Below are positions 12,379 through 58,558 of a DNA stretch of 64,000 nt, piece by piece. Source of the stretch: Phorcus lineatus (lineage: Eukaryota > Mollusca > Gastropoda > Trochida > Trochidae). A model generated the notes under the pieces. The model was not told where the DNA came from. It searched no databases and saw nothing but the letters and a program-made list of their open reading frames with translations. The position numbers and the translations under genes are program-made. The first letter of the stretch is position 1. The number at the start of each line of letters is the position of its first letter. Where the stretch lies: positions 36,491,484 through 36,555,483 of the forward strand of contig OV121095.1 in NCBI GenBank assembly GCA_921293015.1, written 5' to 3'.

Positions 12379-13513
12379 TATGGACCGACCATGGTACCCG
12401 AGACGCAAAACTCTTTGTTCTTAGGTGGGGGGAAGTATGTTGCTTATTTACATAACTGCATGTGTGTACGTATTTGTGTTTGAGAAATGTTTATGGTACC
12501 TCTCATTCTAAGAAATTATATATGATGATATATACGACTTAATAAATGAAATGTTACCAAAAAACTCACATTAAAACATTATTTAAGAGCCACTCCGTGA
12601 TTTTCATAACATTTTATTTATCTTTGATACGAACCTAAATGTCATATTTGGTGATATAAAATGAAAACATCTTAGTTTTTCATGTCCAAAAGACATATAT
12701 ATGACGAATACTGGTTTGCAATGAAAATCTAAAAACAGCCTTATAAATGCACAGAGGTGTAGATATCACGTCCAATATACATGGATACTAGTTATATAGC
12801 CTAGCAAACACTATCGACTCCTAACTGCCCTCCTGGTTGTTTTAGATAAGTCTCCAAAATTATGTTTGACTATTTAACGAGCGCCACTGTCCTGTTTTCG
12901 ATCATAATTGTGTCGTTCTACCTTCATATTGTCACTGTAAAAAACCAACAAGCTTTGAAATGTGTCTTTTTGGTAACAGTCGATACTTCGCGATCAAATG
13001 ACACCATTTATTAAGTTTGGCATATATGACTCCAACAACTCACGGATGTAAGCTTACATCATTTGACTTATACCAGTAACTGTATTTATGTTGAAGTTTG
13101 ACAGTAATCTCTGCACCTTATGCATTCAATACATATGAAATGTTAGCAAACTTGTATAAGAGCTATTCATCTCCATACAATTGGCTCTGATCATTATGTT
13201 TGAGACTGCTATAAGTTTTCTGTGTTGAAGTAATTGACAAGGGCATTGAATTGCATTTCTGTGTTCAATATATTTGTTAATCTGATGTGGTTACATGACT
13301 TTCTTATGTTACACTTTCTTTACGTTTATGTGTTTTTTCTACTTTATAATTTTGAAAATGGAAATTGACAACATTAATTTTCAACCTTTTTTACCTATTA
13401 ATTTTCAGATGAGACAGTTATAATAGGAAAACTTCAGAAAGGTGTATTTAATACATACGTGATGCTCCACATATATGTTTGTGAATAAAAAATCATTAAA
13501 ATAATTGTCCACA

Positions 13514-16500
13514 ATGGATAATCGGCTAGAGAGTGACTTATACAAGGCTATGGTGTGTGAAGATCTCCAACTCTTCATATCACTTCTAGAAAACGGGGCA
13601 AATGCAAACGAATACTATTTTGATTCAGAATATGACAATGTGGTCTCACTTCTTCATGTTGCGTGTGAGATGGGCAAAATCAACTTTGTTCATGAACTTA
13701 TCAAACATCGGGCAACTCTGGATGTTGCCGACAACAATGGACTGACACCGTTAATGTATGCTCTCACTCAGCACAAGACAGATGTCGCAGACCTTCTTCT
13801 AAAAACCAAACCAGAGCTGGCCCATGACGAGGACTGCAATGGTTTCACTGCGGTCGACCTGGCGGCCATTGACGGCAATGTGGAAGCAGTGTTCCTATTG
13901 GCTGGGCATGGCGCGGACATGAATCACACAATGTTTGACGGAACGACCCCGGTCATGAGGGTGATATGGCAGGGGATGATGAAGGACCCCGGGCCGGTTC
14001 TCCAGGCATTTGTTGACTGTGGAGCAGACGTCAATGTGAAGGACAAGAAGTGCAGACGCTCAGCCTTACAGGTAGGACCCTCAGTTGCTTAGCTTTACAG
14101 GTAGGACCCTCAGTTGCCCAGCCTTACAGGTAGGACACTCAGTTGCCCAGCTTTACAGGTAGGACACTCAGTTGCCCAGCTTTACAAGTAGGACACTCAG
14201 TTGCCCAGCTTTACAGGTAGGACACTCAGTTGCCCAGCTTTACAGGTAGGACACTCAGTTGCCCAGCTTTACAGGTAGGACCCTCAGTTGCTTAGCTTTA
14301 CAGGTAGGACACTCAGTTGCTTAGCTTTACAGGTAGGACACTCAGTTGCCCAGCTTTACAAGTAGGACACTCAGTTGCCCAGCTTTACAGGTAGGACACT
14401 CAGTTGCCCAGCTTTACAGGTAGGACACTCAGTTGCCCAGCTTTACAGGTAGGACCCTCAGTTGCTTAACTTTACAGGTAGGACACTCAGTTGCTTAGCT
14501 TTACAGGTAGGACACTCAGTTGCCCAGCTTTACAGGTAGGACACTCAGTTGCCCAGCTTTACAGGTAGGACACTCAGTTGCCCAGCTTTACAAGTAGGAC
14601 ACTCAGTTGCTCAGCTTTACAGGTAGGACTCTCAGTTGCTCAGCTTTACAGGTAGGACACTCAGTTGCCCAGCTTTACAGGTAGGACTCTCAGTTGCCCA
14701 GCTTTACAGGTAGGACACTCAGTTGCTCAGCTTTACAGGTAGGACTCTCAGTTGCTCAGCTTTACAGGTAGGACACTCAGTTGCTCAGCTTTACAGGTAG
14801 GACTCTCAGTTGCTCAGCTTTACAGGTAGGACACTCAGTTGCTCAGCTTTACAGGTAGGACTCTCAGTTGCTCAGCTTTACAGGTAGGACTCTCAGTTGC
14901 TCAGCTTTACAGGTAGGACACTCAGTTGCTCAGCTTTACAGGTAGGACACTCAGTTGCCCAGCTTTACAGGTACATAATTAGTTGTAAGTATGAAGGAAA
15001 GGATCAGGGGCTTCAAAACGTCACTCTGTCACTAAAAGGTTCTGATTTTTTAGGGTTTCAAGGCAGTGTAGCATGAATTTGATGCTAGTTATGAACATGG
15101 ATATGCATCTTGTTAAGCTAAGACTTTAACTCTATATGGTGCTTATGATTTTCATTAGGGATAAATTGCACCCGTATCACTTGCTAGTATAATTCTTGCT
15201 GTATTCAACAAATTCACAGTTTAAAAGCAGACCTTTATTGACATTTCTTTGTAACCACCAGCAGATCTGATTGGACTATTTTGTTCAGGTGTTCGATTTT
15301 ACCAGTTATTGAAACCACACACCAGAATTACATATAATCTTTTTCATAAAATACTCTGAAATTGAACATCCACAAGTATTTTTGATATATTATGTAATAA
15401 ATATTCACTTAAATTGTTACCAACAGCTTGCATCTTTGAAGAAGAACACAAAAGCTGCTGAGGTTCTGTTATCTGCTGGCGCCGACATGTATTCACTGGA
15501 CAGTGGCGCCAAGACTCCATTGACCAATATGATGCTGCAACATGTGAGAAATAGGAACGGATCCTTATTCATCCACGAGGACATCTGGACAATACTTCTT
15601 CTGATGGAGCATGCTGGGATTGATTACGACCGCTATGTTTTTGAGGATGCTGATCCAATGGCAACAGCTGCTCTTCTGAAAGCAGAACCTCTAATCAGGT
15701 TTTTCTTGGCCAACGGCGCCAACCCTAACAAACAAAGTGAGTTGTAGAGGAAAGCAAAGTTTAATTTTTGTTGTGTTCTTTGTATTAATTTTCATTTGGT
15801 TTCAGTGTGAAAATTTGACTGTTAAACAAAAATGAGTCGTGAGTTAATTCTGCACAAGTGCAAGGTTTGATACAAAATAATTTACTGAAATGGAAGATTC
15901 TATCAAAGAGAAAACATCAAAGATATCATGAAACTGTTTATTCTCTTCACAGCTGTTGTGGAATGACATTTTAACAAAATATCATGAAAATATTAAAGTT
16001 TATTGTCAAATATTTCAGGATATAGCATAAGATGATTAAATAATTTATATCTTCCAGCTGCCCTAGGTGCAACTACACTGCTGAAGTGTGCTAGCAGAAA
16101 TGACTTCCCTTCAGTCAAAACCCTTGTAGAATGGAACAGCAACCTCCATTTAAAGGGGAAATACTATAAGAAGTTGGAGGACTATGAGTACACAGTTGAC
16201 GCTTATGAGGTGGCCATTCTTCAAGGACATTTCAACATCGCCAAATTTCTGATCGATGCAGGCTACCTCGACTTCCAGAAGCCGTACCTCTTTGACAAAG
16301 CTCCCCTGCCTAAAGCCCTAGCTGAAGATCCTGAGATGGTCGAGTGGTTAAGGGAGAGATCCTCCAATCCTGAAAGTTTGACTCTTTTGTCTGTGTTTGC
16401 TATTAGGAGGGTGTTGAGACTGGATGCTGTGTCAAGTGTTAAGAAGTTGCCCTTGCCGCCTAAATTGCAGAGAATGGTTATTCTGAAAGACCTTCTGAAT

Positions 16501-16518
16501 TTGGATGTGGACATTTGA
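13514..16518 (+). CDS. Ankyrin repeat and SOCS box (ASB-like) protein, three coding exons, 442 aa
   Basis: Coding exons are 13514-14071, 15427-15736 and 16058-16518. Donors CAG|GTAGGA and CAAA|GTGAGT and acceptors CAACAG and CTTCCAG join in phase 0 and phase 1 to give 443 codons including the stop. The ATG at 13514 sits in ACAATGG. Residues about 15-350 hold degenerate ankyrin repeats, clearest at 44-73, 75-106, 109-140, 142-177 and 182-213 (for example NNGLTPLMYAL). A C-terminal SOCS box follows: a BC-box-like SLTLLSVFAI at 396-405 for Elongin B/C and a Cullin 5 box LPLPP at 420-424. ASB proteins select substrates for Elongin-Cullin 5 ubiquitin ligases in the cytosol and nucleus; the substrate here is unknown. 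Ser replaces the usual Cys of the BC box. The exact ASB subtype cannot be named. The 5' UTR probably begins in this exon at 13409. Confidence 0.85.
14072..14970 (+). repeat. 31 x 29-bp minisatellite made of copied splice donors
   Basis: The array fills exactly 899 bp, 31 units of 29 bp. Unit: GTAGGACACTCAGTTGCCCA then GCTTTACAG, with a few positions varying (ACAC/ACCC/ACTC; CCCA/CTCA/CTTA; CAAG for CAGG). Each unit ends TTTACAG|GTAGGA or a near copy, repeating the ASB exon-1 end CTTACAG|GTAGGA. The first unit begins at the true donor, and a further CAG|GTACAT closes the array at 14970/14971. Only the first donor keeps the ASB frame open; a stop lies in the first unit. Confidence 0.95.
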
Positions 16519-27888: not shown

Positions 27889-28580
27889 TGAATGTATGAA
27901 TGGATGACGTATGAATGGATGATGTGTGTCTGGATGACGTATGAATGGATGACGTATGTCTGGATGACGTAGGAATGGATGACGTATGAATGGATGGTGA
28001 CGTATGAATGGATGGTGACGTATGGATGGATTACGTATATCTGGAAGACGTTTGGTTGGATGACGAATTAATGGATGACGTATAGGTGGATGACGTATGG
28101 ATTGATGACGAATTAATGGGTGACGTATGGATGGATGACGTATAAATGGATGATGTATTAAAGGATGAAGTATGGATGGTTATTGAATGAATTATTGGAT
28201 GAATGACGTATGAATGAATGACGTATAATGAATGACGTATTAATGGACGGTGACGTTGGGTTGGATAACGTATGGATGGATGACGTATTAATAGTTGACG
28301 TATGGATGGATGACGTATGGATTGATAACGCATGTATGGGTGGGTGATGTATTAAAGGATGAAGTATGGATGGTTATTGAATAGAAGACGTATGGATGGA
28401 TATATGGATGGATGACGTATGGATTGATAACGCATGTATGGGTGGGTGATGTATTAAAGGATGAAGTATGGATGGTTATTGAATAGAAGACGTATGGATG
28501 GATATATGGATTGATGACCTATGGATGGATGACGTATGAATGGATATATGGATGGATGACGTATGGATGAATGACGGACG
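27889..28580. repeat. TGACGTATGGATGGA-type minisatellite, about 15-bp unit
   Basis: Nearly 700 bp of variants of GGATGACGTATGAAT, with about twenty GACGTA cores. A higher-order duplication of about 100 bp is visible: the block with ACGCATGTATGGGTGGG at 28328 returns near 28430. Confidence 0.9.
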
Positions 28581-46265: not shown

Positions 46266-46530
46266 GACAAACCTAACGTTAACACAACAAGACGCAAGCT
46301 TCAAATAATAAACTCATGTAATGTTACGAGTTTTAGCCCCCCATCAAATAAAATCATGTTACATTTTGGGAGCTTTAGCTCCCCTTAATCTGAAGGGGGG
46401 CTAACGCTCCCCTTAATCTGAAGGGGGGCTAACGCTCCCCTTAATCTGAAGGGGGGCTAACGCTCCCCGAAACGTAACATGAGTTTATTACTTGAAGCTT
46501 GCATCTAGTTGTGTTTATGTTTGGCGGGTC
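46266..46530 (+). mobile_element. Inverted-repeat element H2 with a triplicated stem-loop
   Basis: The arms (CACAACAAGACGCAAGCTTC ... AATAAACTCATGT and its complement at 46476-46525) pair over about 50 bp. The centre holds three tandem 28-bp units GCTCCCCTTAATCTGAAGG + GGGGCTAAC and then GCTCCCCGAAACGTAACATG (GAAAC at 46469-46473). The outer GTTTGGCGGG matches the CCGCCAAAC ends of H1. The full CTGATGA is not retained here (only CTGAAGG), so this is a degenerate relative. Confidence 0.75.
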
Positions 46531-58175: not shown

Positions 58176-58558
58176 TACGGTGGCATATTAGGGCCATCTG
58201 TTTTTTTATTTTTATCTTGAAATTTCAAGAAAAAAATTGAAATTTCAACATGTCTATCTTGAAATTTCAAGATGATAAGTTGAAATTTCAAGATATTAAG
58301 TTGAAATTTCAAGATGATAAGTTGAAATTTCAAGATACTTATGTTGAAATTTCAAGATAAATAAGTTTAAATTGATAAGTTGAAATTTCAACTTAATATC
58401 TTGAAATTTCAACTTATCATCTTGAAATTTCAACTTATCATCTTGAAATTTCAACTTATCATCTTGAAATTTCAAGATGGATATGTTGAAATTTCAACTT
58501 TTTTCTTGAAATTTCAAGATAAAAATAAAAAAACAGATGGCCCTAATATGCCACCGTA
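58176..58558. mobile_element. Foldback element with 14 TTGAAATTTCAA palindromes, 383 bp
   Basis: Outer inverted ends TACGGTGGCATATTAGGGCC...TGTTTTTTTATTTTTATC are perfect over about 50 bp. The interior is 14 copies of the 12-bp palindrome TTGAAATTTCAA spaced by 7-10 bp of AAGATGATAAG / CTTATCATCTT type. The whole element folds on itself. A possible target duplication (ATATAC/ATATAG) is imperfect. No coding capacity. Confidence 0.9.

Follow-up and report, generated by a model that had tools for sequence, protein, structure and literature searches.

Introduction

Genes may contain head-to-tail, minisatellite-like repeats whose unit spans a real exon-intron boundary and includes part of the exon, an arrangement termed a mirage, of which Canestro 2002 is reportedly an earlier account. 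A human counterpart is the minisatellite of 6-16/IFI6 (Turri et al. 1995, NAR 23:1854). In amphioxus, the mirages of Adh3, BflGb6/BflGb9, TnC and PGBD5 are described as minisatellite-like tandem duplications of an exon-intron boundary, in which many units repeat the AG/GT signals; the Adh3 units are 10-72 bp long (PMC3087553). The Adh3, globin and TnC mirages are reported to be harmless to splicing, and the same was inferred for PGBD5 (PMC3087553, PMC3902484). In BflGb6 the repeats lie on the acceptor side, and the haplotypes carry six and three units of 150-160 bp; PGBD5 has imperfect 60-bp repeats as well as 3 x 108-bp ones. Human IFI6 uses two of its downstream repeat units as donors, and the use of the repeats gives protein isoforms (PMC4526556). 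Variable internal tandem repeats in human segmental duplications likewise lie at exon-intron boundaries and alter splicing structure (PMC2812944). Two further systems share single features with these arrays: the recursive-splicing ratchet points of Drosophila, in which an acceptor and a donor are joined at AG/GT, and the potato RdRp gene, in which intron gain by AG/GT tandem duplication ties a duplication to intron structure (PMC4974935).

Here we describe an array in the gastropod Phorcus lineatus, found in a 64,000-nucleotide stretch of DNA (hereafter, the window). Intron 1 of an ankyrin/SOCS-box gene opens with 31 head-to-tail units of 29 bp, and the unit spans the genuine exon-intron boundary with its exon part included. 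Judged by structure alone, the array is a mirage. It is not the first of its kind, being preceded by the amphioxus mirages and human IFI6, and no molluscan case appeared in the titles and abstract openings of the open-licence papers listed in a literature survey. The array extends exon-boundary mirages to molluscs, with a paralogue that displays the junction in its array-less form. It differs from the amphioxus cases in its host, which is a gastropod rather than a cephalochordate, in its 31 strict 29-bp units on the donor side as opposed to the long acceptor-side units of BflGb6, and in its regularity compared with PGBD5. Unlike the IFI6 repeats, whose 12-nt unit stays in frame, the 29-nt unit is out of frame and carries a stop. 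The array is not grouped with IFI6, since its later donors give no readable isoforms. The human segmental-duplication repeats reportedly form novel introns or lengthen exons and are not known to multiply the donor of an existing intron. In contrast to the ratchet points, the sites described here form a tandem array in a 1.4-kb intron and have other AGs just upstream. In contrast to potato RdRp, the intron pre-existed and its donor end alone was multiplied; intron creation by duplication was rejected because the host gene and its paralogue share the intron. We assign a probability of roughly 0.7 to the reading that the array is a boundary minisatellite, likely of tandem-duplication origin, in which most splicing is predicted to occur at the first donor.

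The host gene

The host gene comprises three coding exons that join into a 442-aa frame of the ankyrin/SOCS-box (ASB-like) type. Coding exon 1 (13514..14071, + strand) contains 186 codons, ends in phase 0 with ...RRSALQ, and contains the Ank Pfam matches, with Ank_2 at E 4.3e-19. Coding exon 2 (15427..15736, + strand) was placed by the joined frame and the alignment with the paralogue. Coding exon 3 (16058..16518, + strand) carries the stop codon and a SOCS box (PF07525 SOCS_box, E 1.5e-5, 25.5 bits versus a cut-off of 23.5). The ankyrin repeats and the SOCS box confirm the ASB-like identity given in a preliminary description of this DNA. Both introns follow the GT...AG rule: intron 1 (14072..15426, + strand, phase 0) spans 1,355 nt, or 456 nt without the array, and intron 2 spans 321 nt. 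The exon 1/exon 2 junction falls inside an ankyrin repeat (SALQ/LA; here and below, a slash within a motif marks the junction), and the joined frame continues this repeat and aligns with the paralogue, in agreement with the splice previously placed at 14071/14072. The gene model, including this splice, is thus supported at the level of sequence by the joined frame and the paralogue alignment. A search of solved structures returned merely general ankyrin-repeat proteins among the best 60 of 378 matches, and Rfam at the gathering threshold detected no families in the window.

A possible acceptor, TTAATTTTCAG/ATG, lies at 13408 with a rough score of 4.5. Accordingly, coding exon 1 may be internal and preceded by a 5' UTR exon, which bears on exon definition. 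The length of coding exon 1 (at least 558 nt) weakens exon definition.

Anatomy of the array

The array occupies positions 14072..14970 on the + strand, and its first unit opens with the exon-1 donor. The count of 31 units of 29 bp is exact, as originally described; the units contain no indels, and an independent TRF run reported 14061-14973 with a period of 29, 31.5 copies and 95% matches. In the unit, 23 of 29 columns are invariant; variation is restricted to columns 8, 18, 19, 21, 23 and 29, which together define nine unit types. Each unit consists of approximately 15 nt of intron start followed by 14 nt of exon end, so that the donor is repeated. The exon-end seed GCTCAGCCTTACAG (14058..14071, + strand), which encodes SALQ of the ankyrin repeat, is copied in every unit with 11 to 13 matches over 14 nt, and the agreement of 13/14 in the best units substantiates the proposal that the units copy the exon-1 donor and the last bases of the exon. 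The exon copy is perhaps 19 nt long, with 16/19 matches in the best units. On the + strand of the window, the best 14-mer outside the array reaches 11/14, at five places.

The unit ends had been described as nearly uniform, with TTTACAG followed by GTAGGA. This holds for 26/31 units and fails for units 2 (CCTTACAG), 4, 10 and 18 (ACAA/GTAGGA), as well as for unit 31, after which GTACAT comes next instead of GTAGGA. When the exon end is counted together with the 31 unit ends, the resulting 32 exon/intron-like junctions comprise 28 CAG/GTAGGA, three CAA/GTAGGA and one CAG/GTACAT. The last of these sites, CAG/GTACAT after unit 31 (14971..14976, + strand), is weaker, with a predicted U1 duplex of -7.1 versus -10.7. 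For the sequence that follows unit 31 (GTACATAATTAGTTG...), an origin as a worn unit has no clear support: 22% of shuffles align equally well.

An array-less paralogue and the direction of copying

The genome searches covered a 957.8-Mb (957,807,699 bp) assembly of 74 contigs, in which the window lies on C32 (45,137,103 bp). The published xgPhoLine1.1 assembly, built from PacBio HiFi reads, totals 957,853,961 bp in 78 scaffolds, slightly above the searched copy; an RNA-seq run (ERR10377999) and an alternate haplotype (GCA_921293055.1) also exist for the species (PMC10444997). Searched against the whole genome, the array matched itself only, among the matches listed. A 23-base unit pattern with up to three mismatches gave at least 31 genome matches, and all those listed were inside the array; the backward control of the pattern gave at least two. 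Exact unit patterns had no match in viral contigs or in contigs of bacterial and archaeal genomes.

A six-frame genome search with the host protein (the best 95 of 801 candidates scored, at least 138 matches) returned mostly matches that span ankyrin parts only. Among the matches listed, one set besides the host gene spans all three exons (C32:37787521-37791190). This paralogue (L022, G000:C32:37785500-37793500) lies on the same chromosome, 1.28 Mb away. Its exons show 40-46% identity to those of the host gene and give a joined frame of 446 aa, with the two introns placed identically. The first exon of the paralogue ends at GCTCAGCTCTACAG/GTAGTT. TRF detected no tandem repeats over the 8-kb paralogue region, and BLAST of its introns against those of the host gene gave short chance-level pieces only (best E 2.1). 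Since the paralogue has a like junction and no array, the exon end predates the array, which was likely built from it. These findings support a minisatellite born from a splice junction, as the preliminary description had supposed. Elsewhere in the genome (L010, G000:C12:24637131-24638276), one frame of 499 aa matches query residues 45-436 with 26% identity and is perhaps an intronless ankyrin/SOCS relative.

Growth of the array

The array was likely founded when some 14 nt of exon and 15 nt of intron were duplicated in tandem, and it would then have expanded as single units or blocks of several were duplicated repeatedly. Units six apart are unusually alike, a likeness equalled in 19 of 10,000 shuffles for the whole array and in 35 for units 1-19. 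This lag was selected because it ranked first among 15 tried across the full array, and the support for a six-unit rhythm is accordingly moderate. In units 1-19, lag 14 is lower than lag 6, yet it draws on only five pairs. The eye also picks out a two-unit rhythm in units 19-31, which is not supported, with 1,909 of 10,000 shuffles doing as well. Invariance extends to 8/9 donor columns and 15/20 other columns, as expected from recent copying alone; this informal comparison gives no indication that the donor is under selection.

Donor strength and predicted products

Predicted U1 pairing reaches -10.7 at 28/32 junctions, calculated with a U1 end that may differ from the species' own. Hence, 27 of the 31 extra junctions equal the genuine donor in this measure, and the array shares with IFI6 a donor strength that matches across several units. 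The three CAA junctions are predicted at -4.2, and the donor of exon 2, at -5.7, is also weaker than the array donors at -10.7. Across the window, 46 of 6,835 GT sites on both strands are as strong as -10.7, and 28 of these 46 lie in the array. RNA folding of the array revealed no special donor exposure: the accessibility of individual donors is 0.002-0.038, and the mean of the region is 0.017.

The predicted products of these donors fall into two classes. Splicing at the first donor retains the full frame, whereas splicing at any of the 31 others would give a protein of 192 aa, in which six extra residues precede the TAG of unit 1 (14090..14092, + strand). This is the first in-frame stop, and it would be met upon later-donor use or intron retention. 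The earlier statement that the first unit carries a stop and that only the first donor yields full protein is thus in accord with the predicted products. Were this stop missing, the TAG within GTAGGA would end translation after 30 nt of the array; of the nine unit types, six were tested as uniform four-unit arrays, and each of the four non-TTAG types among these six behaved in this way. Upon later-donor use, the stop sits 318-1188 nt upstream of the last exon junction. In vertebrates, a stop that far before the last exon junction is the classic setting for nonsense-mediated decay (NMD).

Donor choice and alternative explanations

By analogy with the known cases, dominance of the first donor is quite probable. 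The amphioxus mirages point in this direction, as do human minigenes with duplicated donors. In five such minigenes, with two identical strong donors, exon definition and 365-nt flanking introns, the upstream donor alone was used. In the same study, upstream preference is found in near-equal sites and exon-defined cases, downstream preference in strict short-intron cases, and approximately 60% of all human events favour the downstream donor; weakened donors caused larger test exons to be skipped. The first donor of the array would win because it is transcribed earliest and lies nearest across the exon, most copies being equal to it in predicted U1 pairing. If splicing leaked to later donors, the resulting mRNA would carry a stop far 5' of the last exon junction and is expected to be degraded. 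We propose that mistakes are consequently cheap and the array is tolerated, and the array is likely a mostly harmless repeat. Several points argue against the dominance of the first donor: the equal predicted U1 pairing of 27 copies, the long exon 1, the use of later units in IFI6 and, in the human study, the overall downstream preference and the skipping seen with weakened donors.

In an alternative that follows the preliminary description, later-donor use would rise with copy number and divert transcripts to decay, so that alternative splicing coupled to NMD sets the level of the ASB-like protein. All 31 later donors lead to the 192-aa frame with its distant stop, 27 of them match the first in predicted pairing, and in Hps1 a published choice between upstream and downstream donors controls the mRNA level via NMD. 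We nevertheless consider this alternative unlikely, as the amphioxus mirages are reported without splicing disturbance (PMC3087553, PMC3902484), identical strong donors under exon definition were used at the upstream site only, and the donor columns show no sign of selection in the informal comparison above. A real expression-tuning role for the array is improbable. The same low expectation applies to the notion of a molluscan mirage as a length-set rheostat, in which 31 out-of-frame, stop-carrying donor copies compete with the real site; if it were true, minisatellite-like mutation of array length would set the share of ASB ubiquitin-ligase adaptor transcripts that undergo decay.

A role other than that of donors, for instance as a U1-binding buffer, a splicing enhancer or another intronic element, seems less plausible still. 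The concentration of 28 strong predicted U1-pairing sites within 899 bp speaks for it: in 17 of the 23 other TRF rows, which were checked, none holds a site of -10.65 or below, and two sites of -9 or below occur in just one other array, represented by two overlapping rows among these 17. Against such a role, the array is absent from the paralogue.

Recursive splicing, in which each CTTTACAG/GTAGGA would act as a joined acceptor and donor, the array being removed stepwise and the donor rebuilt, is very improbable. The junction AG/GT is present at 28/31 unit ends. With a rough matrix, eight AG unit ends score 7.7-9.7 as acceptors, compared with 3.8 and 7.8 for the real acceptors of the gene, and the CAA unit end, the ninth of nine scored, receives -1.5. 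Comparable AG/GT sites, defined by such donor and pyrimidine values, number 28 in the array versus 13 elsewhere in the window (seven on the + strand and six on the - strand). However, ratchet points have been described in long introns, and the present intron measures 1,355 nt; each unit end offers a short CTTT in place of a long pyrimidine tract and is preceded by other AGs at -8, -16 and -25. The short intron and these nearby AGs make recursive splicing unlikely. Since the scored AG unit ends are acceptor-like, a splice within the array would restore an identical donor, and its product would resemble a shorter array, a point that matters for the interpretation of junctions.

An unrelated minisatellite inserted at the junction by chance, or an assembly error, is scarcely credible: tandem repeats are common in the window (24 TRF rows, some overlapping), but the former was rejected because the units match the exon precisely at the donor and the paralogue has its junction without an array, and the latter on the HiFi assembly and the structured, ordered unit variants, as judged from the assembly and not from the reads themselves. 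Single HiFi reads are able to span 899 bp.

The array offers a clean natural experiment on how cells choose among near-identical donors, with 28 donors of equal predicted strength that face one acceptor at mostly 29-nt steps. The products of first and later donors differ by whole units, and reads with at least some 20 nt in the exon would separate them; telling the later donors apart takes reads long enough for the units to be counted.

Other features of the window

At 503-1519, a 338-aa open frame encodes an ISXO2-like (IS1595) transposase domain (E 2.8e-19); it represents a mobile-element gene with no internal stop. Three other tandem repeats were observed. At 46378-46468, a 28-bp unit is repeated 3.2 times with 100% matches, and this perfection suggests a young tandem repeat. 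At 58212-58520, a 21-bp unit is present in about 15 copies, with a 63-bp form rich in the palindrome TTGAAATTTCAA. At 27894-28576, a degenerate GGATG-type unit of 15 bp occurs in about 46 copies with 71% matches, and higher periods of 42-102 bp are superimposed on it.
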